A stretch of DNA of 64,000 nucleotides from Gemmatimonadota bacterium (GTDB lineage: Bacteria; Gemmatimonadota; Gemmatimonadetes; Gemmatimonadales; Gemmatimonadaceae). Positions 17,695-28,377 of the stretch are shown one piece after another. The position numbers were made by a program, and so were the translations under genes. Position 1 is the stretch's first letter; every line of letters begins with the position of its first letter. The notes under the pieces were generated by a model. That model was not told the DNA's origin, made no database searches, and saw only the letters and a program-made list of their open reading frames with translations. The DNA is taken from contig JAQBYI010000009.1 of NCBI GenBank assembly GCA_027622655.1, forward strand, positions 1-64,000. Direction: 5' to 3'.

Positions 17695-19088
17695 GCGAGA
17701 CTTCTCGGGTCGGCAATCTCGCCGCGCACGGCGCACGCAGCCGCCGTCACAGGGCTCGCGAGCAGCGTCCGCGCACCTTTGCCCTGCCGTCCTTCGAAAT
17801 TGCGGTTGCTGGTACTCACGACGTACTCGCCCGGCCCGGCGCGGTCGGCATTCATCGCGATGCACATCGAGCAGCCGCTCTCGCGCCACTCGGCGCCCGC
17901 CGCGCGAAACACTTCGGCGAGTCCCTCACGCTCGGCTTCTCGCTTCACGCTCTGCGAGCCGGGCACCACCAGCACCCGCACATTTGGCGCTACCGTGCGT
18001 CCGCGGAAAATCGCGGCAGCGTCGCGCAGGTCGGAAATGCGCGAGTTGGTGCAACTGCCGATGAAGACGACGTCCACGCGGTGGCCCAGGAGGCGGCTAC
18101 CGGGCTCGAAGTTCATGTAACTCAGCGCACGATTGATGCCGGCGGCATCCGGACCGCCGTTCGGGACGGGAAGCGTACCGTCGATGGGGATCGACATCCC
18201 GGGATTCGTTCCCCACGTGATCATCGGGGCCACGCCGGACATATCGAGCGACACGGTCCGGTCGAATCGCTCGTCGTCGTCGCGCCGGAACGCACGCCAA
18301 CGGCCGACGGCGGCGTCCCACGCGGCGCCGCTTGGCGAGAACGGCCGGCCCGCAAGCCACGAGATGGTCGTATCGTCGGGCGCGATCATCCCTGCGCGAG
18401 CACCGGCTTCGATGCTCATGTTGCACACCGTCATGCGCCCTTCCATCGGGAGGGCACGAATGACCGCACCGGTGTACTCGATCACGTGGCCGGCGCCGCC
18501 TCCGACGCCGACCTTCGCGATGATTGCAAGCGCGACGTCCTTTGCCGTGACGCCTGCGCCGAGCGTTCCGTCCACGCGCACCTCCATCGTGCGCGCGCGC
18601 CGCTGGAGCAGGCACTGCGTGGCGAGTACGTGAGCCACTTCGGACGTACCGATGCCGAACGCGAGCGCACCAAACGCACCATGCGTGCTCGTGTGGCTGT
18701 CGCCACACACGATGGTCATTCCGGGTTGCGTGAGTCCAAGCTCGGGGCCAATGACGTGCACAATCCCCTGCCGCTCGTGACCGAGCGCGTAGAGCGGTAC
18801 AGCGAACTCCAGGCAATTCTCCTCTAGTGTCGCCGTCTGCGCCGCTGCGTCAGCAGCAACCGGTAATCCGCCGTCGGCGGCGCGCATAGTCGGTGTCGCG
18901 TGATCCATGGTCGCGATGGTGCGATCTGGGCGGCGCACGCGAAGGCCACGCGATCGCAGTTCTGTAAACGCCTGCGGCGATGTGACTTCGTGCACGAGGT
19001 GGAGATCAACGCCGAGAACCGCAGGCGCGTCGCCCTCGGCGCGCACGACATGCGAGTTCCAGATACGATCGAACAATGTGCCGCTCAA
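17691..19088 (-). CDS. leuC: 3-isopropylmalate dehydratase large subunit
   Basis: This 465-residue aconitase-family subunit carries a 4Fe-4S cluster. Cluster cysteines are in 'FIGSCTNSR' and 'CSMCIAMN', and the substrate loop shows '[24 protein letters not shown]'. The length matches bacterial LeuC. The start is a TTG overlapping the leuA stop (TTGA), giving '[10 protein letters not shown]'. The reading frames of leuA, leuC, leuD and leuB are linked by 4-nt overlaps throughout. Confidence 0.96.
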
Positions 19089-20374
19089 GTGCGTGCTCCT
19101 ATCTGTCCAGTGGCGGCTGCGCGGACGGCATCGCAGCGAAGAATGAGTTCGATGTCACGATCGTCGAGCGTCTTCTTGCGGTCGGCGGCTTGTTTGAACT
19201 GGCGGAACGCGACCTCGATCTGGCGCTCGCCGAGCGTGTGCCCTAGCGCGGCAATGTGCTTTCGGAATGCGTGCCGGCCGGAGTGCTTGCCGAGTACGAG
19301 GTGCGCGCCCGTGAGCCCCAGCGACTCGGCGTCGAGAATCTCATACGTGCGGCGGTGCTTGAGGACGCCGTCCTGGTGGATCCCCGATTCGTGGGCGAAC
19401 GCGTTCGCGCCAACTATGGCCTTGTTCGGCGGCACGGCGACGCCGACGCATTCCGCCACGACTCGTGAGGCTTCACCGATCTCGGCGAGCTTGATGCCTG
19501 TGGACACACGGTGCACGTCGTGCCGCGCCGCCAACGCTACCACGACTTCCTCGAGGGCAGCGTTCCCCGCACGCTCACCCAGCCCGTTGAGCGTGCATTC
19601 AACCTGGCGGGCGCCAGCACGAACACCGGCAAGTGTGTTGGCGACGGCGAGTCCCAGATCGTCGTGGCAGTGGGTCGAGATGACGGCCGAGGGCCGGTCT
19701 GGCGGGGCAATCGAACTCAGGCTCTGCGTCTGCGCATCGAGTGTGGCGAAGCGCTGGACGATGGTAGCGATCAGGTCGGCGTACTCTTCGGGCGTTGCGT
19801 AGCCGACAGTGTCGGGAATGTTCAACGTCGTGGCGCCGGATTCGACTGCCGCTGCCAGTACCTCCAGTAGATATCCGCGGTCGGACCGCGTCGCGTCTTC
19901 GGGAGAGAACTCCACGTCGGTGCAGAGCGAGCTGGCGTACGCCACCATTTCGCTCGTGCGGCGCAGCACGGCTTCGCGCGTGCTCGCCAGCTTGTGGTGG
20001 ATATGAACGTCGGATGTCGAGATGAACGTGTGAATACGGCTGCGGCTGGCGTGCGCCACAGCCGATGCGGCACGCTCGATATCGGCCGGAATCGTGCGCG
20101 CGAGTCCGCAGATCACCGGCGCGCCGGCATTGCTTCCCACGTCAGCCGCAATCGCACTCACCGCCTCCCAGTCGCCGTCCGACGCAGCGGGAAAGCCGGC
20201 TTCGATGATGTCGACGCCAAGGCGACCCAGCATCCGGGCAACACGCAGTTTCTCGGCCGATGTCATGGAGCATCCCGGCGCCTGCTCGCCATCGCGCAGG
20301 GTGGTGTCGAACACCAACGCGCGCGCAGAAGCCGCTGTGTTTGCGGAATCGGCAGATCGCCCGTTCAACGTCAC
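19085..20374 (-). CDS. leuA: 2-isopropylmalate synthase lacking the regulatory domain
   Basis: This enzyme condenses acetyl-CoA with 2-oxoisovalerate, the committed step to leucine. The TIM barrel shows '[18 protein letters not shown]', '[15 protein letters not shown]', the metal motif '[14 protein letters not shown]' and '[14 protein letters not shown]'. The 429-residue product ends after the linker subdomain ('[18 protein letters not shown]'). It lacks the C-terminal LeuA_dimer domain, about 100 residues, that binds leucine in typical 510-570-residue enzymes. The truncation looks native, because the stop overlaps leuC's start. The GTG start lies 1 nt after the sigma-factor stop. It is expected to be leucine-insensitive. 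A citramalate or homocitrate synthase is less likely given leuCDB downstream. Confidence 0.9.
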
Positions 20375-20375
20375 G

Positions 20376-20966
20376 TCAGATGCCTTCTGGCGCCTTGAGT
20401 CGCGCGCGCAACAGGAGCAGTCCGCGATGGATCTGCGTCTCGACGGTCTTCACTGCGACGCCGAGTCGCTCGGCGATCGCCGAGGGGCCAATCCCTTCCT
20501 GCCAGCGGAGCCGGCACACTTCACGCTGCCGCGCAGGCATGTCGGCCAGTGCCGCCGCGAGTGCTGCTCGGAGTCCGGGGTGGCGCTCGTGCTCGTCGTT
20601 GTCGTCGTTCTCACCGGTACCGTGCGGGAGGTCGTCGCGGTGAACCGACTCGGCCCAGCGGCGATGCAACGTTTCGCGCGCGACCCAGTCGAGCGCCCGG
20701 TTGCGAGCGGCGCGCACCATATAGCCGCGAACGTCACCATGTACGACGAGCCGGTCACGCGTGTTCCAGAGAGTGAGGTAGACGTCGTGTACGAGTTCGG
20801 CCGCCGTCTCGCGCGATTTGACCACGCCGAACACGACGCGCTGCAGCTGCTCCACGTGGCGCGCAAAAAGCGTTTCGAACGCGGCAGGATCGCCGGCGCG
20901 CAACGCCGCGACCAACGCGGCGCTGTCTTCGCGCTTCTCGTCGCGCACGCGTTCGCTCACAATCAC
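20376..20966 (-). CDS. ECF-type sigma-70 factor inside the ilv-leu operon
   Basis: The 196-residue protein has region 2 at about 20-90 ('[20 protein letters not shown]', '[13 protein letters not shown]', '[14 protein letters not shown]') and region 4 at about 130-190 ('[18 protein letters not shown]', '[20 protein letters not shown]'). An acidic, Asn/Asp/Glu-rich linker separates them. The start is GTG overlapping the ilvC stop (GTGA), and the stop is 1 nt from leuA's GTG, so it is translated as part of the operon. No anti-sigma gene is visible. It could direct transcription of biosynthetic or stress genes elsewhere in response to amino-acid supply; the target promoter is unknown. Confidence 0.88.
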
Positions 20967-21988
20967 GCGCCGCCGACGCCCGGCTGAACGACACGCGGCT
21001 GTACGAACGGCATCATCTCACGCAGCGTGACTCCCACGCGCTCGATTCCGTGCTCCACGTCCGCACTGCGGGCAGCCTTGAACCACGGGCGCCCGGCCGC
21101 GTGCTCCTTCATCCACCCGTTGGCGAACGATCCGTCGCGGATCTTGGCGAGCAGGTCTCGCATCGTCTCACGCGTGTCTTGGGTGACGATGCGCGGACCG
21201 GCGACGTAATCGCCGTACTCGGCAGTGTCACTCACCGAATAGCGCATGTAGTTGAGCCCACCTTGATACATCAGGTCGACGATCAGTTTCAGTTCGTGAA
21301 GGCATTCGAAGTAGGCGACCTCGGGCTGGTAGCCCGCGTCAACCAGCGTTTCGAAGCCGGCCTTCACGAGGTGCGACACGCCCCCGCAGAGCACGGCCTG
21401 CTCGCCAAACAGGTCTGTCTCGGTTTCCTCGCGGAACGTCGTCTCGATCACCCCGGCGCGCGTACAGCCGATGGCGCGCGCGTACGCGAGTGCGTCTGCC
21501 ATCGCGTGACCGGTCGCGTCCTGTGCCACGGCGACCAGCGCCGGAGTTCCGCCACCCTGCGTGTAGAGTTCGCGCACGCGATGACCGGGTGACTTTGGCG
21601 CTACCATGCTGACGTCGACGCCTTCGGGTACGGGAATGAACCCGAAGTGCACGTTGAAGCCGTGGGCGAACATCAACGTGTTGCCCGGAACGAGCGCAGG
21701 CTGAATCTCTTCGGCGTACACGGCGGCCTGCGTCGTGTCCGGCACGAGCAGCATGACGATGTCAGCCGCGGCCGAGGCGGCCGCAACGCTTTCAACACGG
21801 AAGCCGGCCGACGCTGCTTTTGCACGGCTGCAACTGCCTTCGTGTAATCCGATGATCACGTCAACGCCGCTGTCGCGCAGGTTCTGGGCGTGCGCGTGGC
21901 CCTGGCTACCGTATCCAATCACCGCAACCGTGCGTTTTTCGAATCGCTTCGGATCCGCGTCGCCGTCGTAGTACATGCGCGCCGTCAT
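20963..21988 (-). CDS. ilvC: Ketol-acid reductoisomerase, class I
   Basis: This enzyme catalyses Mg-dependent alkyl migration and NADPH reduction of acetolactate in valine and isoleucine synthesis. The 341-residue protein shows '[16 protein letters not shown]', '[10 protein letters not shown]' (cofactor-specificity loop of the NADPH type), '[10 protein letters not shown]', '[15 protein letters not shown]' and the metal-binding C-terminal knot with '[13 protein letters not shown]' and '[18 protein letters not shown]'. The length is that of short class I enzymes. Its start overlaps the ilvN stop by 4 nt and its stop overlaps the sigma-factor start. Confidence 0.96.
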
Positions 21989-22362
21989 CGGGATTCGTCT
22001 CCTGGTGCGCCGTCGGCCTGCGCCCTGTAGAGGTACGCGCCGTGCTCGGCGAGCAATGCGTCAGGGTGGGCAGCGGATTGAGTTTCCGGCCACGACGTTG
22101 ACGAGCCAACGAACGCGCCCGCCGGCATTCGCGCGGTGACGTCGCGAACCGAGATGACCTCGACTAGCGACCCGAGGTGCCGCGCGACCGTCGGCGCCTT
22201 GCCAGGGTCAACCGTCAAAGTCATCTGCAGGACGCCCGGCGTTCCCGATGCTGCGAGCGTGAGCGACGAGACGTTCACTGAACCGCGCCTGAGCAGCGAC
22301 GATGCGCGGTGCAGGCCGGCGGGTCCGTCCTGAAGAAGTACTGAGAGTGTGTGCTGGTTCAT
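21985..22362 (-). CDS. ilvN: Acetolactate synthase small (regulatory) subunit
   Basis: The 125-residue protein has an N-terminal ACT domain ('[20 protein letters not shown]' and '[10 protein letters not shown]'), the valine-binding fold of the AHAS regulatory subunit. The second domain found in about 160-residue homologues is not recognisable. The last about 45 residues look unstructured, so it resembles short IlvM/IlvN forms. The ATG at 22362 follows an 89-nt pyrimidine-rich gap after ilvB, and the stop overlaps ilvC. Confidence 0.88.
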
Positions 22363-22451
22363 ATCGATAAGGAGTGAGGTGTGCTGAGTGAGGTGGACGA
22401 GAGGTGTGAGGCGTGAGGAGGACGAGAGGTGTGAGGAGTGAGGTGGGCCGG
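22363..22451 (-). promoter_or_regulatory. Pyrimidine-rich intercistronic tract between ilvB and ilvN
   Basis: Read on the minus strand, this is an 89-nt C/T-dominated stretch with repeated CCTCAC, CTCCTCAC and CCTCTCGTCC words, ending at the ilvN start without a good Shine-Dalgarno. It breaks an otherwise overlapping operon. It is the same sequence style as the tracts at 6.4, 62.2 and 63.3 kb. Confidence 0.5.
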
Positions 22452-24149
22452 TCAGGCGGTGAGCATTTGGCCGATCGAGTTGCCGGCCGGTACCATCGGA
22501 AAAACATTCGCTTCGCTTTCGACGCGAAAATCAACGACCACGCAGCCGTCGTGCGCCCACGCGTCGGCGACGGCTCCCGCCGCGTCCTCCGCGCGTGTGA
22601 CGGTGATGCCGCGAATGCGATGCGCCTCGGCCAGGAGCGCGAAGTCCGGGCCGCTGAGCGGTGTGCCGCTGTAACGGCGGCCGTTGAAGAGTTCCTGCCA
22701 CTGCCGAACCATTCCCAGGTAGCCGTTGTTGATGACGGCGATCTTGACGTTGCGCAGGTCTTCCTGGCGCATCGTGGCGAGTTCCTGGTTCGTCATCTGG
22801 AATCCCCCGTCACCGCAAATCACCCAGATGGTCTCATCAGGGACGGCAAGCGCTGCGCCGAGCGCGGCCGGCACGGCGAATCCCATGGTGCCCGCACCGC
22901 CGCTGGTGATGTGCGTGCGTGGCCGGCTCCAGTCGATGAGCTGCGCCGCCCACATCTGGTGCTGGCCCACGTCGGTCACCACACGCCAATCGTGGCGGGC
23001 GGTGAGCGCCGCATTGAGCGCTTCGTACACATCGTGCGGCATCAACGGGGACGTGCGTTCGCGCTTGGCGTATGCCTGCCGCGGCCGGTGAGTTTCACGA
23101 AGTGCGGCGATCTCCGCCAACCATGTATCGGTTGCGAGCGGTGCGAAGTCGACAAGCATCGCGGCGAGCACCTGCCGCGCATCACCGATTACGGCGGCAT
23201 CGACGCGCACCAGCTTGTCTATCTGAAGTGCGTCGATGTCCACATGAATCACCCGTGCGCGCGGCGCGAACGTGCACGCTTTGCCCGTGACGCGGTCGTC
23301 GAAGCGCGTCCCCACATTGAGCAGCACGTCGCACGCCTGGATCGCGCGATTCACGTGAACCCATCCGTGCATTCCCGGCATGCCGAGTGCAAGCGGATGT
23401 TCTGCAGGAAAGGCACCAAGTCCGTGCAGCGTGGTGACCACCGGAATGCGGCCACGTTCTGCGAGCGCAAGCAGTTCGGCCGCTGCGCCTGCCTGCACGA
23501 CGCCGTTGCCGGCGAGAATCAGCGGGCGTTTGGCTTCGCGCAGGATTTCCATCGCAGCGCCGATTGAATCCGATGACGCCGCGCGTGCCGGCTGATAACC
23601 TGGGAGGTTCATCGGCACGTCCCAGTCCGGCGTGACGGTCGCCTGCTGTGCGTCCTTGGAGATGTCCACCAGCACGGGGCCTGGGCGGCCGCTCGTCGCT
23701 ATGTGAAACGCCTCGGCCATCACTCGCGGAATCTGAGCGGCGTCGGTGACGAGGAAGTTGTGCTTCGTGATCGGGATCGTTACGCCGGTGATATCGACTT
23801 CCTGGAATGCATCAGTACCGATGAGTGCATGCGCGACCTGGCCGGTGATGGCGATGAGTGGTGTGCCGTCCATCCACGCGTCCGCGAGCGGCGTGACGAG
23901 GTTCGTTGCGCCGGGGCCGCTCGTCGCAATGCACACGCCTACGCGCCCACTCACGCGCGCGTATCCCTCGGCGGCGTGCCCGGCCCCTTGTTCGTGGCGG
24001 CAGAGCACGTGGCGCAGCTGGTCGCGGTATTCCCAGAGCGCGTGGTAGACCGGCATGATCGCGCCGCCCGGAATCCCGAAGAGCACGGAGACGCCCTGGC
24101 GCACGAGCGCCTCGCAGACGATTTGAGCCCCCGTGCGTGTGTTTGTCAC
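22452..24149 (-). CDS. ilvB: Acetolactate synthase large (catalytic) subunit
   Basis: This thiamine-diphosphate enzyme makes acetolactate or acetohydroxybutyrate, the first common step to branched-chain amino acids. The 565-residue sequence shows 'LFGIPGGAIMPVYHAL', the catalytic glutamate in 'CRHEQGAGHAAEGYARVSG', 'ATSGPGATNLVTPLADAWMD' and the ThDP motif 'ICGDGGFQMTNQEL...NN'. The GTG start overlaps the ilvD stop (GTGA). FAD-binding central-domain features are retained. Confidence 0.95.
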   Translation of the reverse strand: MTNTRTGAQIVCEALVRQGVSVLFGIPGGAIMPVYHALWEYRDQLRHVLCRHEQGAGHAAEGYARVSGRVGVCIATSGPGATNLVTPLADAWMDGTPLIAITGQVAHALIGTDAFQEVDITGVTIPITKHNFLVTDAAQIPRVMAEAFHIATSGRPGPVLVDISKDAQQATVTPDWDVPMNLPGYQPARAASSDSIGAAMEILREAKRPLILAGNGVVQAGAAAELLALAERGRIPVVTTLHGLGAFPAEHPLALGMPGMHGWVHVNRAIQACDVLLNVGTRFDDRVTGKACTFAPRARVIHVDIDALQIDKLVRVDAAVIGDARQVLAAMLVDFAPLATDTWLAEIAALRETHRPRQAYAKRERTSPLMPHDVYEALNAALTARHDWRVVTDVGQHQMWAAQLIDWSRPRTHITSGGAGTMGFAVPAALGAALAVPDETIWVICGDGGFQMTNQELATMRQEDLRNVKIAVINNGYLGMVRQWQELFNGRRYSGTPLSGPDFALLAEAHRIRGITVTRAEDAAGAVADAWAHDGCVVVDFRVESEANVFPMVPAGNSIGQMLTA

Positions 24150-25891
24150 GCGGGCACCTCGGTCACCGCGTTTTGCGTGCGCGCTGCGACTGACCCGTTC
24201 TGGGAGGGCACCTCGAGTACGGCGCCCCGCGCCGCATTCGTCACGAAATGGACGTACCGCGCGAGCCAGCCGCGGCGTGCGGCAGGCGTACGGGGCAAAA
24301 AGCGGGCTCGGCGTTCGGCCAATTCGAACTCATCAACCATGAGCGACATCGTATTCTCCGCGACGTCGATGTCGATTCGGTCGCCGTCTTCCACGAGCGC
24401 AATCGTGCCGCCTTCGGCGGCTTCCGGTGATACGTGGCCGATGCAGAGCCCGCGCGTACCGCCGGAGAACCGGCCGTCGGTGATCAATGCGACCTTGTCG
24501 CCGAGCGGCATTCCCTTCAGGTAGCTCGTCAATGCGAGCATCTCTCGCATTCCCGGGCCGCCGCGTGGTCCTTCATTCCGGACGACCACCACATCGCCGG
24601 CCTGAATCTTCGACGTGCGAGCCGCCTCGAGCGCCGCGTCTTCCGACTCGAAAACGCGCGCAGGCCCGCTGAAACACATTTCGTGCTGCTCCACCGCGCC
24701 CACCTTCACCACGGCTCCTTCGGTGGCGAGGTTGCCGAATAGCGCACAGAGCGCACCACGCGCCGAGTGCGGGCGATCGATGGGCCGGATGCAATCCGGG
24801 TTCGAGTTTCTGACACCGCTCAGGTTTTCTCCGAGCGATTTGCCGGTGACAGTGCGCGCGGACGTGTCGATCAGCCCGGGCTCGCGCAAAAGTTCGGCGA
24901 GGATGGCGGGGACCCCGCCCGCAGCGTGAACGTCCTGCATGTGCCACTGCTGGTCGCCGTCCCACGCGGGCGAGACCTTGGTGAGGTGCGGCACTCGCCG
25001 CGCGACCTCGTTGATTCGTTCCAGCGGGTATTCGATTCCGGCCTCGCGTGCCAGCGCGAGGACGTGGAGCACGGTGTTGGTCGAGCCGCCCATCGCCACG
25101 TCGAGCGCCATCGCATTGTCGATCGCGGCGGGCGTAACGATGTCGCTGAACCTCGTTCCCTCGCGCACCATACTGACCAGTGCCGTGGCCGCGGCGCGCG
25201 CGAGATCGAGACGCGTGGGATCGGTCGCCAACAGAGAGCCGTTGTACGGAAGTGCCACGCCAAGCGCTTCGCACAGGCAGTTCATCGAGTTGGCCGTGAA
25301 CATCCCGCTGCAGCTTCCGCAGCTGGGGCAGGCGAACGTCTCGAGTTCCTCCAGGCGCGCGTCATCAATCAGGCCGGCGGCGTGCTGGCCAACGCCCTCG
25401 AACACAGAGATCAGGTCGATCTTCTTGCCGGCCCGGTCCACGCCGGCCTTCATCGGTCCGCCGGAAACAAAGACTGTCGGCACGTTCGCCCGCGCCGCGC
25501 CCATCAGCATTCCGGGCACGATCTTGTCGCAGTTCGGAATGCAGATCATACCGTCGAAGCAGTGGGCCACAACCATCGTTTCGACGCAGTCGGCGATCAG
25601 CTCACGCGATGGGAGCGAGTAGTGCATTCCGGCGTGGCCCATGACGATGCCGTCGTCCACGCCGATCGTGTTGAACTCGAACGGAAGACCGCCGGCCGCA
25701 CGTATGGCGTCCTTGACGACGCGTCCGAACTCCTGCAGGTGCACGTGTCCGGGGACGATGTCCACGTACGAGTTGCAGACCGCGATGAGCGGTTTGTCCC
25801 AATCGGCGGCACTGTGGATCTGCCCCGTGGCGCGCAGGAGCGCGCGGTGGGGAGCCCGTTCAATGCCACGTTTGACTGTGTCTGATCGCAA
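24146..25891 (-). CDS. ilvD: Dihydroxy-acid dehydratase
   Basis: This enzyme dehydrates dihydroxyisovalerate and dihydroxymethylvalerate using an Fe-S cluster. The 581-residue protein has 'RSDTVKRGIERAPHRALLRA' at the N-terminus, 'NCDKIVPGMLMGAARANVP', 'CPSCGSCSGMFTANSMNCL' (cluster cysteines) and 'TDGRFSGGTRGLCIGHVSPE'. The start is the TTG at 25891. The assignment rests on the conserved MRSDxxKxGxERAPHR beginning, and no ATG lies in frame nearby. It lies directly downstream of the ilvL-like leader and terminator, so it is the first structural gene controlled by that attenuator. Confidence 0.95.
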   Translation of the reverse strand: MRSDTVKRGIERAPHRALLRATGQIHSAADWDKPLIAVCNSYVDIVPGHVHLQEFGRVVKDAIRAAGGLPFEFNTIGVDDGIVMGHAGMHYSLPSRELIADCVETMVVAHCFDGMICIPNCDKIVPGMLMGAARANVPTVFVSGGPMKAGVDRAGKKIDLISVFEGVGQHAAGLIDDARLEELETFACPSCGSCSGMFTANSMNCLCEALGVALPYNGSLLATDPTRLDLARAAATALVSMVREGTRFSDIVTPAAIDNAMALDVAMGGSTNTVLHVLALAREAGIEYPLERINEVARRVPHLTKVSPAWDGDQQWHMQDVHAAGGVPAILAELLREPGLIDTSARTVTGKSLGENLSGVRNSNPDCIRPIDRPHSARGALCALFGNLATEGAVVKVGAVEQHEMCFSGPARVFESEDAALEAARTSKIQAGDVVVVRNEGPRGGPGMREMLALTSYLKGMPLGDKVALITDGRFSGGTRGLCIGHVSPEAAEGGTIALVEDGDRIDIDVAENTMSLMVDEFELAERRARFLPRTPAARRGWLARYVHFVTNAARGAVLEVPSQNGSVAARTQNAVTEVPA

Positions 25892-25903
25892 TCGAGAGCC
25901 CGG

Positions 25904-25937
25904 AAAAGAAAAGGCCCCCTCTTTCCCAGAAGGGGCC
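25904..25937 (-). terminator. Attenuator terminator before ilvD
   Basis: On the minus strand, GGCCCCTTCT and AGAGGGGGCC form a 10-bp stem (one G-U pair) with a 5-nt loop, followed by TTTTCTTTTCC. It ends 13 bp before the ilvD start, so termination here would prevent expression of ilvD and downstream genes. Confidence 0.85.
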
Positions 25938-25939
25938 GA

Positions 25940-25985
25940 CCTCGATTTTCGAGGCGCCTCTCCCGGGTGATTCGGGAGGGGCGCC
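25940..25985 (-). promoter_or_regulatory. Leader hairpins of the ilv attenuator
   Basis: Directly after the leader stop, 25985-25973 and 25965-25953 form a 13-bp stem with one weak pair (ggcgcccctcccg/cgggagaggcgcc). A second perfect 6-bp hairpin, CCTCGA-TCGAGG (25954-25940), overlaps its last two bases. The downstream arm of the first hairpin can also pair imperfectly with the 5' arm of the terminator, a possible antiterminator. Confidence 0.65.
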
Positions 25986-25994
25986 GGTGCTGCG

Positions 25995-26096
25995 TTACAT
26001 CAGTGCTGCCGGCCCTCGCTCCCCTGCGCTAATAACCACCACGACAAGAATCGCGATGGTAAGAAGGGGAAGGAGAAGTCGGCCGAAGAGTCGCAT
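25995..26096 (-). CDS. ilvL: Branched-chain-amino-acid-rich attenuator leader peptide (IlvL-like)
   Basis: A 33-codon ORF runs from an ATG that overlaps the prephenate dehydratase stop (TGATG) to TAA. Residues 7-22 read LLLPLLTIAILVVVVI: 13 of 16 are Leu, Ile or Val, including four consecutive valines. The remainder is ordinary (start MRLFGR, end GERGPAALM). Strong hairpins and a U-tract terminator follow immediately, then ilvD. This is the architecture of enterobacterial ilvL attenuators: starvation for charged tRNA stalls the ribosome and allows read-through. The peptide itself probably has no function. A tiny membrane protein is the alternative reading. It was too short for routine gene calling. 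Confidence 0.8.
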   Translation of the reverse strand: MRLFGRLLLPLLTIAILVVVVISAGERGPAALM

Positions 26097-26668
26097 CAGA
26101 TATGTAGACGGGTGGCGGTTGGAATACCCCTACAAGCTATCAGCAGGAACTCCGTGAAATTATCGGCACGATCTTCGATTCCCTTCGTAAGGACTGCAGC
26201 TCTATAGATGTGGGCGGCCGCGGCCGACGCGATCACTGCGTCTGCTGCGAGGTGGCCCAACATCAGGTCCCGCACGGCGCCTCCTGTGTCGGACACCTCC
26301 ACCGCGACGCATTCGGGATGGGCCTCGAAGAACCGTGTGCACTGGCGAAGCGCCACCGGATGCGAGGCCACCCTCCTTAGAGTGGCGGTCGGCGTCCCCG
26401 GCCGCGCGATGAGGCATTGCTCGACGGGATACATCAACTGGCCGAGGATCGTGAACGGCTCGGAGAGCGCCCGCTCGGAGTTGTCGTACACCGGCCCGGC
26501 AATCGTGTTGTGAACCGGCACTACCCCGCGCTCGGCGCGCCCCGAGGCGACAGAGGCAAACAGCTCGTCGAACGACTCGCAGCTCAGCAAGTCAGCGTCT
26601 GCTCCGACGAGTTGCCTTGCCGCTCCCTCGCTGAATGAGCCGGGAGCGCCCTGGATCGCGACCATCAC
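26096..26668 (-). CDS. pheA: Prephenate dehydratase without ACT domain
   Basis: This enzyme converts prephenate to phenylpyruvate, the last committed step to phenylalanine. The 190-residue protein contains 'AIQGAPGSFSEGAARQL', 'GVVPVHNTIAGPVYDNSERAL' and a C-terminal 'DNFTEFLLIA', where families usually have (N)xTRF; the Thr is kept and Arg is replaced by Glu. The about 80-residue ACT domain that binds phenylalanine in most bacterial PDTs is absent. The start is GTG 26668 or ATG 26665, after a 73-bp gap. Its stop codon is shared with the ilvL-like leader start, so translation of pheA feeds into the leader. Confidence 0.88.
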   Translation of the reverse strand: MMVAIQGAPGSFSEGAARQLVGADADLLSCESFDELFASVASGRAERGVVPVHNTIAGPVYDNSERALSEPFTILGQLMYPVEQCLIARPGTPTATLRRVASHPVALRQCTRFFEAHPECVAVEVSDTGGAVRDLMLGHLAADAVIASAAAAHIYRAAVLTKGIEDRADNFTEFLLIACRGIPTATRLHI

Positions 26669-26741: not shown

Positions 26742-27041
26742 TCACGGCTCTGAACCCTGCGAGCGCCGGGTGATCGTGATGATCCGCCAAAACAAATCGC
26801 GCACGTCCTCTTCAGGGAGTGCGGCTTCGCGCGCCCACTCGCCGGCCCGCCGAACTACGCGTGCCTCCTGCGGCGGATCGAGCACCGGCAGCCCCGCGGA
26901 GCGTTTTGCCGCAGCGATCACCGCAGCGGCGTTGAGGCGTTCGGCGATCAACCGGACAATCGTGCGGTCGACTCGCTCGACTTCGTTTCGCGCCGCGACG
27001 AGTTCGGCGGACGACGGCGCTCCTGCGGTGGAGTCGTTCAT
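26742..27041 (-). CDS. aroQ: Chorismate mutase, AroQ class
   Basis: The 99-residue all-helical protein rearranges chorismate to prephenate. Its opening helix 'ARNEVERVDRTIVRLIAERL', the 'VIAAAKRSAGLPVLDPPQEA' segment and 'LFWRIITITRRSQ' match monofunctional AroQ enzymes. It overlaps the DAHP synthase stop (ATGA) and precedes prephenate dehydratase, so the three steps DAHP synthase, mutase and dehydratase are encoded in order. There is no export signal, so it is not the secreted AroQ-gamma type. Confidence 0.88.
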   Translation of the reverse strand: MNDSTAGAPSSAELVAARNEVERVDRTIVRLIAERLNAAAVIAAAKRSAGLPVLDPPQEARVVRRAGEWAREAALPEEDVRDLFWRIITITRRSQGSEP

Positions 27042-28114
27042 ATGGCACCGTGTGCTGCGGGCATCATTTGGGCTGGCCGTGCGGCCGGCATGCGTCGCCC
27101 AATGGCGGCGGCGATCGGCGTGGCGGCACGCATCAACGCGTCGAACTCCGTGAGTGTCAGTGCTTGTTCACGATCGGATTTCGAGAGCTCCGGCTGCGCG
27201 TGTACCTCCACCATCAGGCCGTCCGCACCGGCCGCGATCGCTGCGAACGAGAGCGCCGGTACCAGTGCGGCGTCGCCGGCCGCGTGGCTCGGATCTACGA
27301 TGACCGGCAAATGCGTTTCGCGTCGAAGCACCGGTATAGCCGCAATGTCCAGTGTGAATCGCGTGCTCGTCTCGAAAGTACGGATTCCGCGTTCACAGAG
27401 AATCACGTCGGCGTTGCCGCGCGCCATGATGTGCTCGGCAGCGAGAAGGAATTCGCTGATCGGCGCCGCCAACCCCCGCTTGAGGAGCACCGGCCGGCCG
27501 ATCCTGCCGAGTTCGGCCAGTAGCGCGTAGTTCTGCATGTTGCGTGCGCCCACCTGAAGTACGTCTGCGTACTCGGCCACGACGTCGACGTGTCGCGTGT
27601 CCATCACTTCGGTCACCACCGGGAGGCCGGTCTCGCGGCGGACCTGCGCAAGCAGTTCGAGCCCTTCCACGCCCATGCCCTGAAACGCGTAAGGAGACGT
27701 GCGCGGTTTGAACGCGCCGCCCCTGAGCGCAGTGGCTCCGCCGCGGCGTACGCCGCAGGCGGCGTCGCGCAGGAGATCGAGACGTTCGACCGAACACGGC
27801 CCCGCGATCATCACGAGTGCTGCGCCGCCAACTACCGCGTCTGGCGCGCTCCCAATTCGAATGGGCGTCGTGTGCGAGCTACCGGCGGCATCGCGTGAGA
27901 CCAGCCGATATGGGCGCGACCACGACGCGACTGATTCGACATCTGGATCTGCGCGCCATGCGTCCACATCCGCACCGCTGGCATCGCCCGCGCACGCAAC
28001 AACCGTGCGCGTGTCACGGTACACGACGTGCGTGCGAAGCCCGCGTCGCTCGATCCGCTCGCGGAGCGCGTCTACTCGCGCGCGGGGCATGCCTGCTCGT
28101 GTCATGATGACCAT
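27038..28114 (-). CDS. aroF: DAHP synthase, type I-beta with N-terminal ferredoxin-like domain
   Basis: This enzyme condenses phosphoenolpyruvate and erythrose 4-phosphate, the entry to the shikimate pathway. The 358-residue protein has an N-terminal ACT/ferredoxin-like region (about 1-80) as in Thermotoga-type enzymes. The KDO8P/DAHP TIM barrel follows with 'VMIAGPCSVE', 'RGGAFKPRTSPYAFQGMG', 'QVGARNMQNYALLAELG', 'CERGIRTFETSTRFTLDI' and 'VIVDPSHAAGD'. The N-terminal domain probably binds Tyr or Phe. The ATG at 28114 has GGGAG upstream and sits 20 bp after an intrinsic terminator, so expression depends on read-through of that attenuator. Confidence 0.92.
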   Translation of the reverse strand: MVIMTRAGMPRARVDALRERIERRGLRTHVVYRDTRTVVACAGDASGADVDAWRADPDVESVASWSRPYRLVSRDAAGSSHTTPIRIGSAPDAVVGGAALVMIAGPCSVERLDLLRDAACGVRRGGATALRGGAFKPRTSPYAFQGMGVEGLELLAQVRRETGLPVVTEVMDTRHVDVVAEYADVLQVGARNMQNYALLAELGRIGRPVLLKRGLAAPISEFLLAAEHIMARGNADVILCERGIRTFETSTRFTLDIAAIPVLRRETHLPVIVDPSHAAGDAALVPALSFAAIAAGADGLMVEVHAQPELSKSDREQALTLTEFDALMRAATPIAAAIGRRMPAARPAQMMPAAHGAI

Positions 28115-28134: not shown

Positions 28135-28164
28135 AAAAAAAACGGCCCGTCGTTTGACGGGCCG
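28135..28164 (-). terminator. Attenuator terminator before DAHP synthase
   Basis: On the minus strand a perfect 9-bp stem (CGGCCCGTC with GACGGGCCG), a 4-nt loop and eight consecutive T form a textbook intrinsic terminator. It lies upstream, not downstream, of the gene it would control. Confidence 0.92.
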
Positions 28165-28223
28165 CAGAGGAAACGAAGTGTGCTGGTCAGCTACGCGCGC
28201 ACAAAACTCCGCTCTGGGCCCGT
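28157..28223 (-). promoter_or_regulatory. Antiterminator of the Phe attenuator
   Basis: Leader RNA ACGGGCCCAGAG (28223-28212, codons 17-20 of the leader peptide) is complementary to CUCUGCGGCCCGU (28169-28157): 12 base pairs with one bulged C. The second segment includes most of the terminator's 5' arm, so the two structures exclude each other. An earlier segment UUCCGC (28248-28243), just before the Phe codons, can pair with GCGGAG (28212-28207), giving the classical 1:2, 2:3, 3:4 topology. Confidence 0.75.
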
Positions 28224-28271
28224 GTGGGGTCCAAAAAAGAATGCGGAAGTAAAGAGGGCGCGGCGTGACAT
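28191..28271 (-). CDS. pheL: Phenylalanine-rich attenuator leader peptide (PheL-like)
   Basis: A 26-codon ORF (ATG to TAG) has Phe at positions 7, 11, 12, 13 and 23: 'MSRRALFTSAFFFGPH' then 'TGPERSFVRA'. It is followed by a perfect terminator and precedes the DAHP synthase, chorismate mutase and prephenate dehydratase genes, whose end product is phenylalanine. Ribosome stalling at the FFF codons would cover the segment just upstream and free the antiterminator. This matches enterobacterial pheL logic. No convincing Shine-Dalgarno is seen, which is the weakest point. It was too short for routine gene calling. Confidence 0.82.
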   Translation of the reverse strand: MSRRALFTSAFFFGPHTGPERSFVRA

Positions 28272-28377
28272 TGGAGGCGAGAGTCTATCGGTCCCGACGC
28301 GGCGAGTCAAGCGGGGCACGGCTTCAGAACCATTGGCACCGGCTGCACTCCCGGCCGGGGAGGCGTACTTTCGTACC

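Follow-up and report, generated by a model that had tools for sequence, protein, structure and literature searches.

In Escherichia coli, the pheL leader is a short orf with phenylalanine codons, with an intrinsic terminator ahead of the prephenate dehydratase gene and an alternative antiterminator. Leaders with aromatic codons have also been placed in front of DAHP synthase genes. The Corynebacterium glutamicum aroR leader, in which Phe-Tyr-Phe is encoded, precedes the DAHP synthase gene aroF, and phenylalanine limitation raises transcription there (Neshat et al. 2014, as cited in PMC11802643), while the uORFC-13-1 motif before aroF in Acholeplasma is predicted to be an upstream orf with phenylalanine codons and then a terminator (PMC8632094). 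For the trpL attenuator of Sinorhizobium meliloti, it was shown experimentally that the RNA begins at the leader ATG (PMC7298713). An older comparative study of Actinobacteria reported no RNA regulatory structures for phenylalanine and tyrosine operons, with tyrosine under T-boxes only (PMC1262725). Attenuation or leader peptides in Gemmatimonadota, and attenuators with tyrosine codons, were not found in the searched literature, which consisted mostly of open papers.

A sequence-only reading of a contig had proposed a pheL-like, phenylalanine-specific attenuator in front of DAHP synthase, outside the Proteobacteria. The contig does belong to Gemmatimonadota, probably Gemmatimonadaceae, but C. 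glutamicum aroR and Acholeplasma uORFC-13-1 are precedents for a phenylalanine or tyrosine attenuator before DAHP synthase outside the Proteobacteria.

The leader and its proposed switch

The element occupies 28271-28135 on the minus strand of the window, that is, the whole stretch of 64,000 nucleotides that was analysed; the leader orf, phenylalanine codons, 9-bp terminator, run of eight T and antiterminator with one bulge that had been proposed there are exact to the base. The leader peptide orf of 26 codons, MSRRALFTSAFFFGPHTGPERSFVRA (28191-28271, minus strand; ATG at 28271, TAG ending at 28191), contains five phenylalanine codons, no tyrosine and no tryptophan: codon 7 (28253-28251), the regulatory codons 11-13 (TTC TTT TTT, 28233-28241) and codon 23 (28205-28203). 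Within the orf, at codons 17-20 and starting 9 nt past the final phenylalanine codon of the 11-13 run, lies segment 2, the antiterminator 5′ arm ACGGGCCCAGAG (28212-28223). It pairs over 12 bp with one bulged G with the extended segment 3, the antiterminator 3′ arm CTCTGCGGCCCGT (28157-28169), which overlaps the 5′ arm of the terminator. The intrinsic terminator (3:4) is a hairpin of nine perfect base pairs, CGGCCCGTC-AAAC-GACGGGCCG, with the loop AAAC (28143-28164, -18.6 kcal/mol), followed by the eight T (28135-28142). A promoter, TTGACT-17-TAGACT, is predicted at 28282-28310, also on the minus strand. Its -10 element ends 10 nt before the leader ATG, there is no Shine-Dalgarno sequence, and transcripts from this promoter would have a 5′ UTR of just a few nucleotides. 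The gene on the upstream side is divergent, so that the terminator can act only within this operon's own leader; a read-through terminator of the upstream gene is ruled out for the same reason.

Neither the window, at gathering scores, nor the locus, down to E = 1, matched any Rfam model of amino-acid leaders, T-boxes or riboswitches. The pheL-like label therefore holds for the mechanism and not for the family. A phenylalanine riboswitch or T-box has next to no probability as an explanation: T-boxes do control DAHP synthase elsewhere, and one was found at an Acholeplasmatales locus (L116), but the absence of an Rfam match and a short leader made up of orf, spacer and terminator only speak against one here.

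Among the 418 short ATG orfs (10-45 aa) of the window, MSRRALFTSAFFFGPHTGPERSFVRA is the most phenylalanine-dense. Four phenylalanines in nine codons were reached by 0.5% of dinucleotide shuffles of the leader's own upstream region, and shuffling the orf segment equalled the 2:3 pairing in 2% of cases. TTT makes up four of the five leader phenylalanine codons, as against a TTC:TTT ratio of 57:11 in the neighbouring genes, and T-rich sequence alone could be the source of these codons. Single-locus figures of this size (shuffle p 0.005-0.02) are by themselves suggestive; it is the relatives that make the case compelling.

The genes under its proposed control

The first gene behind the terminator encodes a type I DAHP synthase with an N-terminal ferredoxin-like domain (27038-28114; Pfam PF00793 and PF18152; NCBIfam PRK08673, 430 bits). 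The start of the next, an AroQ-type chorismate mutase (26742-27041; PF01817), overlaps its stop codon, and the third encodes a prephenate dehydratase of 190 aa (26096-26668), all on the minus strand; Pfam and NCBIfam thus bear out the three functions originally given to the operon. The dehydratase consists of the catalytic domain only (PF00800, residues 3-178), and Pfam gives no ACT domain in it. Its nearest relatives are longer and appear to retain that domain. The ACT domain usually confers feedback by phenylalanine, and attenuation may replace allosteric control in a dehydratase that is without it. The prephenate dehydratase of G136 (L313), likewise behind an attenuator, is also short.

Positions 19085-26096 of the window hold ilvD, ilvB, ilvN, ilvC and leuA, and a second attenuator candidate was noticed on the minus strand at 26096-25904, before ilvD. 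Its leader, MRLFGRLLLPLLTIAILVVVVISAGERGPAALM, is the most Leu/Ile/Val-dense short orf in the window, its ATG overlaps the prephenate dehydratase stop (TGATG), and a terminator with a T-rich tail follows at about 25937-25913; with the phenylalanine leader it would make two attenuators in series. Similar leaders precede ilvD in the relatives L318 (SLLLVLLIVVLLIAQ) and L319 (LLLSLILSLLLIGVGLIG), and prephenate dehydratase also adjoins ilvD in two relatives from the same order (G037, G052). Because ilvD (family TIGR00110) is present in the window genome and in none of the 17 genus mates searched, the phenylalanine and branched-chain cluster looks like an accessory island or the relic of a widespread loss.

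A family of aromatic leaders in Gemmatimonadota

The loci collected came from the family of the window and from the order, class and phylum above it, the nearest DAHP synthase loci in public genomes being those of Gemmatimonadaceae and other Gemmatimonadota. Of 122 regions upstream of window-type DAHP synthase genes, 88 contain a short orf that starts with ATG and has four or more aromatic codons (Phe, Tyr or Trp) in nine, compared with 0.7% of shuffles and 0/122 on the opposite strand. These genomes have another type of DAHP synthase (about 45-50% identity), which is without an aromatic leader except for two WWW-type leaders, LNLWWWPWRNSAVG and STQWWWPWRDFAVG (L041 and L082, two genomes of one genus), which are candidates for Trp-type attenuators before DAHP synthase.

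Of 107 family leaders, 92 have a terminator at the corresponding position, at a median of 27 nt past the stop codon. Among the 78 leaders that have a promoter match with a TTGACA-like -35 element, 53 have the end of the -10 element 6-7 nt ahead of the ATG, and only 7/88 have a motif resembling a Shine-Dalgarno sequence. The prediction from these features is that transcription in the family probably starts at or beside the leader ATG and yields leaderless mRNA.

One locus before a DAHP synthase-chorismate mutase-tyrA operon (L217, G363:C110) keeps the promoter, an antiterminator-like segment and the terminator, with a leader orf that stops after three codons (ATG ATA GAG TAA); it seems to be a decayed attenuator or an assembly error. 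A specificity call from this locus was dropped, the orf picked there being spurious.

Covariation of the alternative pairings

To score covariation, the orf segment of every locus was paired with the terminator 5′ arm of that locus and with those of the other loci. The mean 2:3 pairing energy with own partners was -25.1 kcal/mol compared with -21.2 kcal/mol for permuted ones (z -10.7; not reached by any of 5000 permutations), a test that leaves phylogeny in, so that the values within terminator sequence classes (z -2.5, -4.4 and -6.5) are the safer ones. At least seven of eight nucleotides complementary to the own arm 3 were found in 59 of 74 leaders, where 25 would be expected. The 1:2 pairing, between the leader start and arm 2, was likewise better than permuted across the family (z -7.1), and the 3:4 stem shows compensatory changes, with two or more standard pair types at most positions in register.

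Across the family, the distance from the last aromatic codon to the start of arm 2 has a median of 10 nt and peaks sharply at 9-11 nt, as it should if a ribosome stalls with that codon in its A site. Such spacing, together with covariation of the antiterminator, is what a ribosome-mediated attenuator should have, as are a terminator between the leader and the first gene, present here, and an orf with cognate codons; the window leader, the translation of which is predicted, has its five phenylalanine codons before phenylalanine genes, and the arrangement recurs in relatives. When the relatives were examined in the way that the sequence-only reading had suggested, orfs with aromatic codons and terminators were found at the same place, as was covariation in the 1:2, 2:3 and 3:4 pairings, and it was the expectation of conserved phenylalanine that had to be revised, as described below for the codons.

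These comparisons bear on the reading of a constitutive terminator that sets the basal level of expression, preceded by an orf that arose by chance. The single-locus chance of 0.5-2% is not extreme and the protector helix is weak in the window copy, but about 90 diverged relatives repeat the combination of aromatic leader, terminator and complementary arm, with the spacing kept and with compensatory changes, which makes that reading very improbable.

The peptide sequence shifts with the RNA arm: TGR is found with GGCCCGT, GSPG with GGCTCCC, and RMGPG with GGCTCGTG or GGCCCGTGC. This bears in turn on a role in trans, besides the one in cis, for the terminated leader RNA or its peptide, as with rnTrpL and peTrpL of S. 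meliloti. The near-leaderless start and short terminated RNA, both predicted, resemble rnTrpL, the 5′ end of which is the trpL ATG (PMC7298713), and the C-terminal half of the peptide is alike within lineages (TGR..RR.R, GVRA). Conservation of this peptide segment has its explanation in the antiterminator arm encoded there, and the additional role is considered unlikely.

Proposed mechanism and folding

By its parts, their spacing, the covariation and the match between codons and operon, all of them read from sequence, the window element is very probably a phenylalanine-specific ribosome-mediated transcription attenuator of aroF, chorismate mutase and prephenate dehydratase. The model predicts the start site, the translation of the leader, the stalling of the ribosome, the termination and the response to phenylalanine. 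Transcription would start just before or at the leader ATG, giving an almost leaderless mRNA. With ample Phe-tRNA, the ribosome would pass the phenylalanine codons closely behind RNA polymerase, segment 2 would lie under the ribosome or fold back on the leader, the 9-bp terminator would form, and transcription would stop at the T-run. With scarce Phe-tRNA, the ribosome would halt at codons 11-13, a short way before segment 2; that segment could then pair with segment 3 ahead of the synthesis of segment 4, blocking the terminator and allowing all three genes to be transcribed. The element would be one member of a family of Gemmatimonadota leaders whose regulatory codons, whether tyrosine, phenylalanine or all three aromatic ones, fit the enzymes encoded downstream.

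A protector segment before the phenylalanine codons had also been proposed. The leader orf is indeed predicted to fold as a protector helix (MFE -31.8), but its support in the window copy is weak: folded up to arm 3, the transcript has an energy of -33.3 without a ribosome and -31.7 with a stalled one, so that protector and antiterminator appear nearly isoenergetic and the protector is the weakest and least certain part here. Across 88 leaders folded to arm 3, the mean pairing probability of arm 3 with arm 2 was 0.43 when free and 0.75 with a stalled ribosome (Wilcoxon 5e-10). For the window copy it was 0.55 without a ribosome and 0.76 with a stalled one, the latter value recurring when the ribosome was set on the stop codon; in this model, therefore, the off state may depend on kinetics or on the ribosome masking segment 2 just as arm 3 emerges. 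When the complete leader was folded, the terminator was favoured by energy even in the stalled-ribosome model, and the antiterminator must therefore win by forming first. This is how the antiterminators of known attenuators act.

Regulatory codons follow the operon

Conserved phenylalanine codons had been expected in relatives. In the closest ones the leader codons are mostly for tyrosine, because their operons end in tyrA; phenylalanine dominates where prephenate dehydratase is downstream. Core codons before DAHP synthase-chorismate mutase-tyrA operons number F46 Y168 W2 (42 leaders) and those before prephenate dehydratase F29 Y10 W4 (eight distinct leaders), a difference with a Fisher p of 3e-10 for F/Y and a per-leader rank test p of 5e-5, both ignoring relatedness; phenylalanine outnumbers tyrosine in only five of the eight dehydratase-linked leaders. 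For DAHP synthase with none of these genes within reach, the core codons are F51 Y92 W30 (37 leaders), tryptophan being present in 25 of the 37 (p 2e-9 for its presence, again ignoring relatedness). On the tree, the dehydratase operons need at least three separate changes. The pattern in these sequences suggests that the regulatory codons follow the operon: tyrosine with prephenate dehydrogenase, phenylalanine-rich with dehydratase, and mixed with lone DAHP synthase.

An attenuator that senses a general slowing of translation, or several aromatic amino acids, rather than phenylalanine specifically, would account for the mixture of phenylalanine, tyrosine and tryptophan in many family members, and codon content does not translate simply into response: C. 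glutamicum AroR, with FYF, responds to phenylalanine and not to tyrosine (PMC11802643). The window leader has five phenylalanines and neither tyrosine nor tryptophan, however, the codon type tracks the downstream gene, and a paralogue on another contig of the same genome, a tyrA operon with the leader MSTLYASYYYYAVGRHTGRTAGARRG (YASYYYYA), has five tyrosines and no phenylalanine; the broader sensing is accordingly judged improbable for this element.

The window DAHP synthase does not group with that paralogue in the tree but stands beside a genus of another family, g52; the support is moderate (81) and the branch long (1.19). A simple recent duplication of the genome's own tyrosine operon is disfavoured by this separation, and the sequences make transfer or old paralogy the likelier origin. 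The DAHP synthase-chorismate mutase operons of g52 have leaders of the SYFFFFTY- or CYFSPFTF-type. The same genus contains the nearest relatives of the window dehydratase (about 50% identity), and these have nearly pure phenylalanine leaders, MPLRSSHFCFIFFFATHSTGRDWRHARD and MPQRVSRFRFAFLFTSHETGRDWSRARD (SRFRFAFLFTS and SHFCFIFFFAT), with terminators. In G024, a DAHP synthase fragment is followed by dehydratase and a separate contig end carries the DAHP synthase start with the leader ...TGYFSYRFFWAFPDRGRG, the two pieces being presumptively joined. A mis-binned contig is not favoured as an explanation of the window: GC is even along it, and a neighbouring protein of 1121 aa is closest to those of genus mates (57-65%). 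The contamination of the MAG is 4.2%.

Candidate leaders in other phyla

In other phyla, at least four aromatic codons in nine were found upstream of 24/70 DAHP synthase genes (13% of shuffles; 11/70 on the reverse strand) and at least five upstream of 23/70 (2.7% of shuffles; 6 on the reverse strand). A terminator follows the orf in 23 of the 24 leaders, many of which are in Planctomycetes. With a background higher than in Gemmatimonadota, these sequences are a lead. Dense mixed aromatic leader orfs, most with terminators, were seen in Planctomycetes, Calditrichota, Treponema and others, for example MKRSWFRYFWFFYFTGLCPGAGGIS at L104; the other loci are L106, L107, L109, L110, L115, L120, L123, L131, L140, L146, L150, L165, L167 and L169.

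It is somewhat probable that the window element is a branch of a widespread class of DAHP synthase attenuators, leaderless in Gemmatimonadota and apparently extending to Planctomycetes, Calditrichota, Chloroflexi, Spirochaetes and Firmicutes, in which codon swaps repeatedly reset the specificity (tyrosine, phenylalanine, or phenylalanine with tyrosine and tryptophan) as tyrA or prephenate dehydratase was added to the operon. A single homologous RNA scaffold that carries tyrosine, phenylalanine or mixed codons according to the operon's enzymes is a natural experiment in regulatory reprogramming: specificity is apparently changeable by few codon substitutions while the RNA switch covaries and keeps its pairing. 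Classic attenuation would thereby be extended to a phylum for which the searched literature describes no case, and tyrosine-specific ribosome-mediated attenuators would be added.

Comparison with known systems

E. coli pheL-pheA also has a short orf with phenylalanine codons, a terminator before the prephenate dehydratase gene and an alternative antiterminator (pheL is named in PMC11802643). The window element differs in that its operon includes DAHP synthase and chorismate mutase as well, the antiterminator arm is part of the leader orf, a Shine-Dalgarno sequence is missing, the enzyme is without an ACT domain, and no Rfam leader model matches. C. glutamicum aroR shares a leader peptide with aromatic codons before DAHP synthase; it belongs to Actinobacteria and to another operon, while in Gemmatimonadota the specificity varies between paralogous operons. 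The uORFC-13-1 motif likewise combines an upstream orf containing phenylalanine codons and a terminator before DAHP synthase, but it has a ribosome-binding site, is known from one genus and environmental sequences, includes at least one phenylalanine codon and carries extra conserved structure (PMC8632094). With S. meliloti trpL the resemblance is the RNA start at the leader ATG, predicted from sequence in Gemmatimonadota and proven experimentally in S. meliloti, where the codons are for tryptophan and the gene is trpE(G) (PMC7298713). A phenylalanine attenuator is thus ordinary in principle and its mechanism of a known kind; relative to the searched literature, what is new is the Gemmatimonadota family, its tyrosine-specific members and the switching of codons with operon content, and the interest of the window element is as the phenylalanine branch of this apparently undescribed, codon-reprogrammed family.
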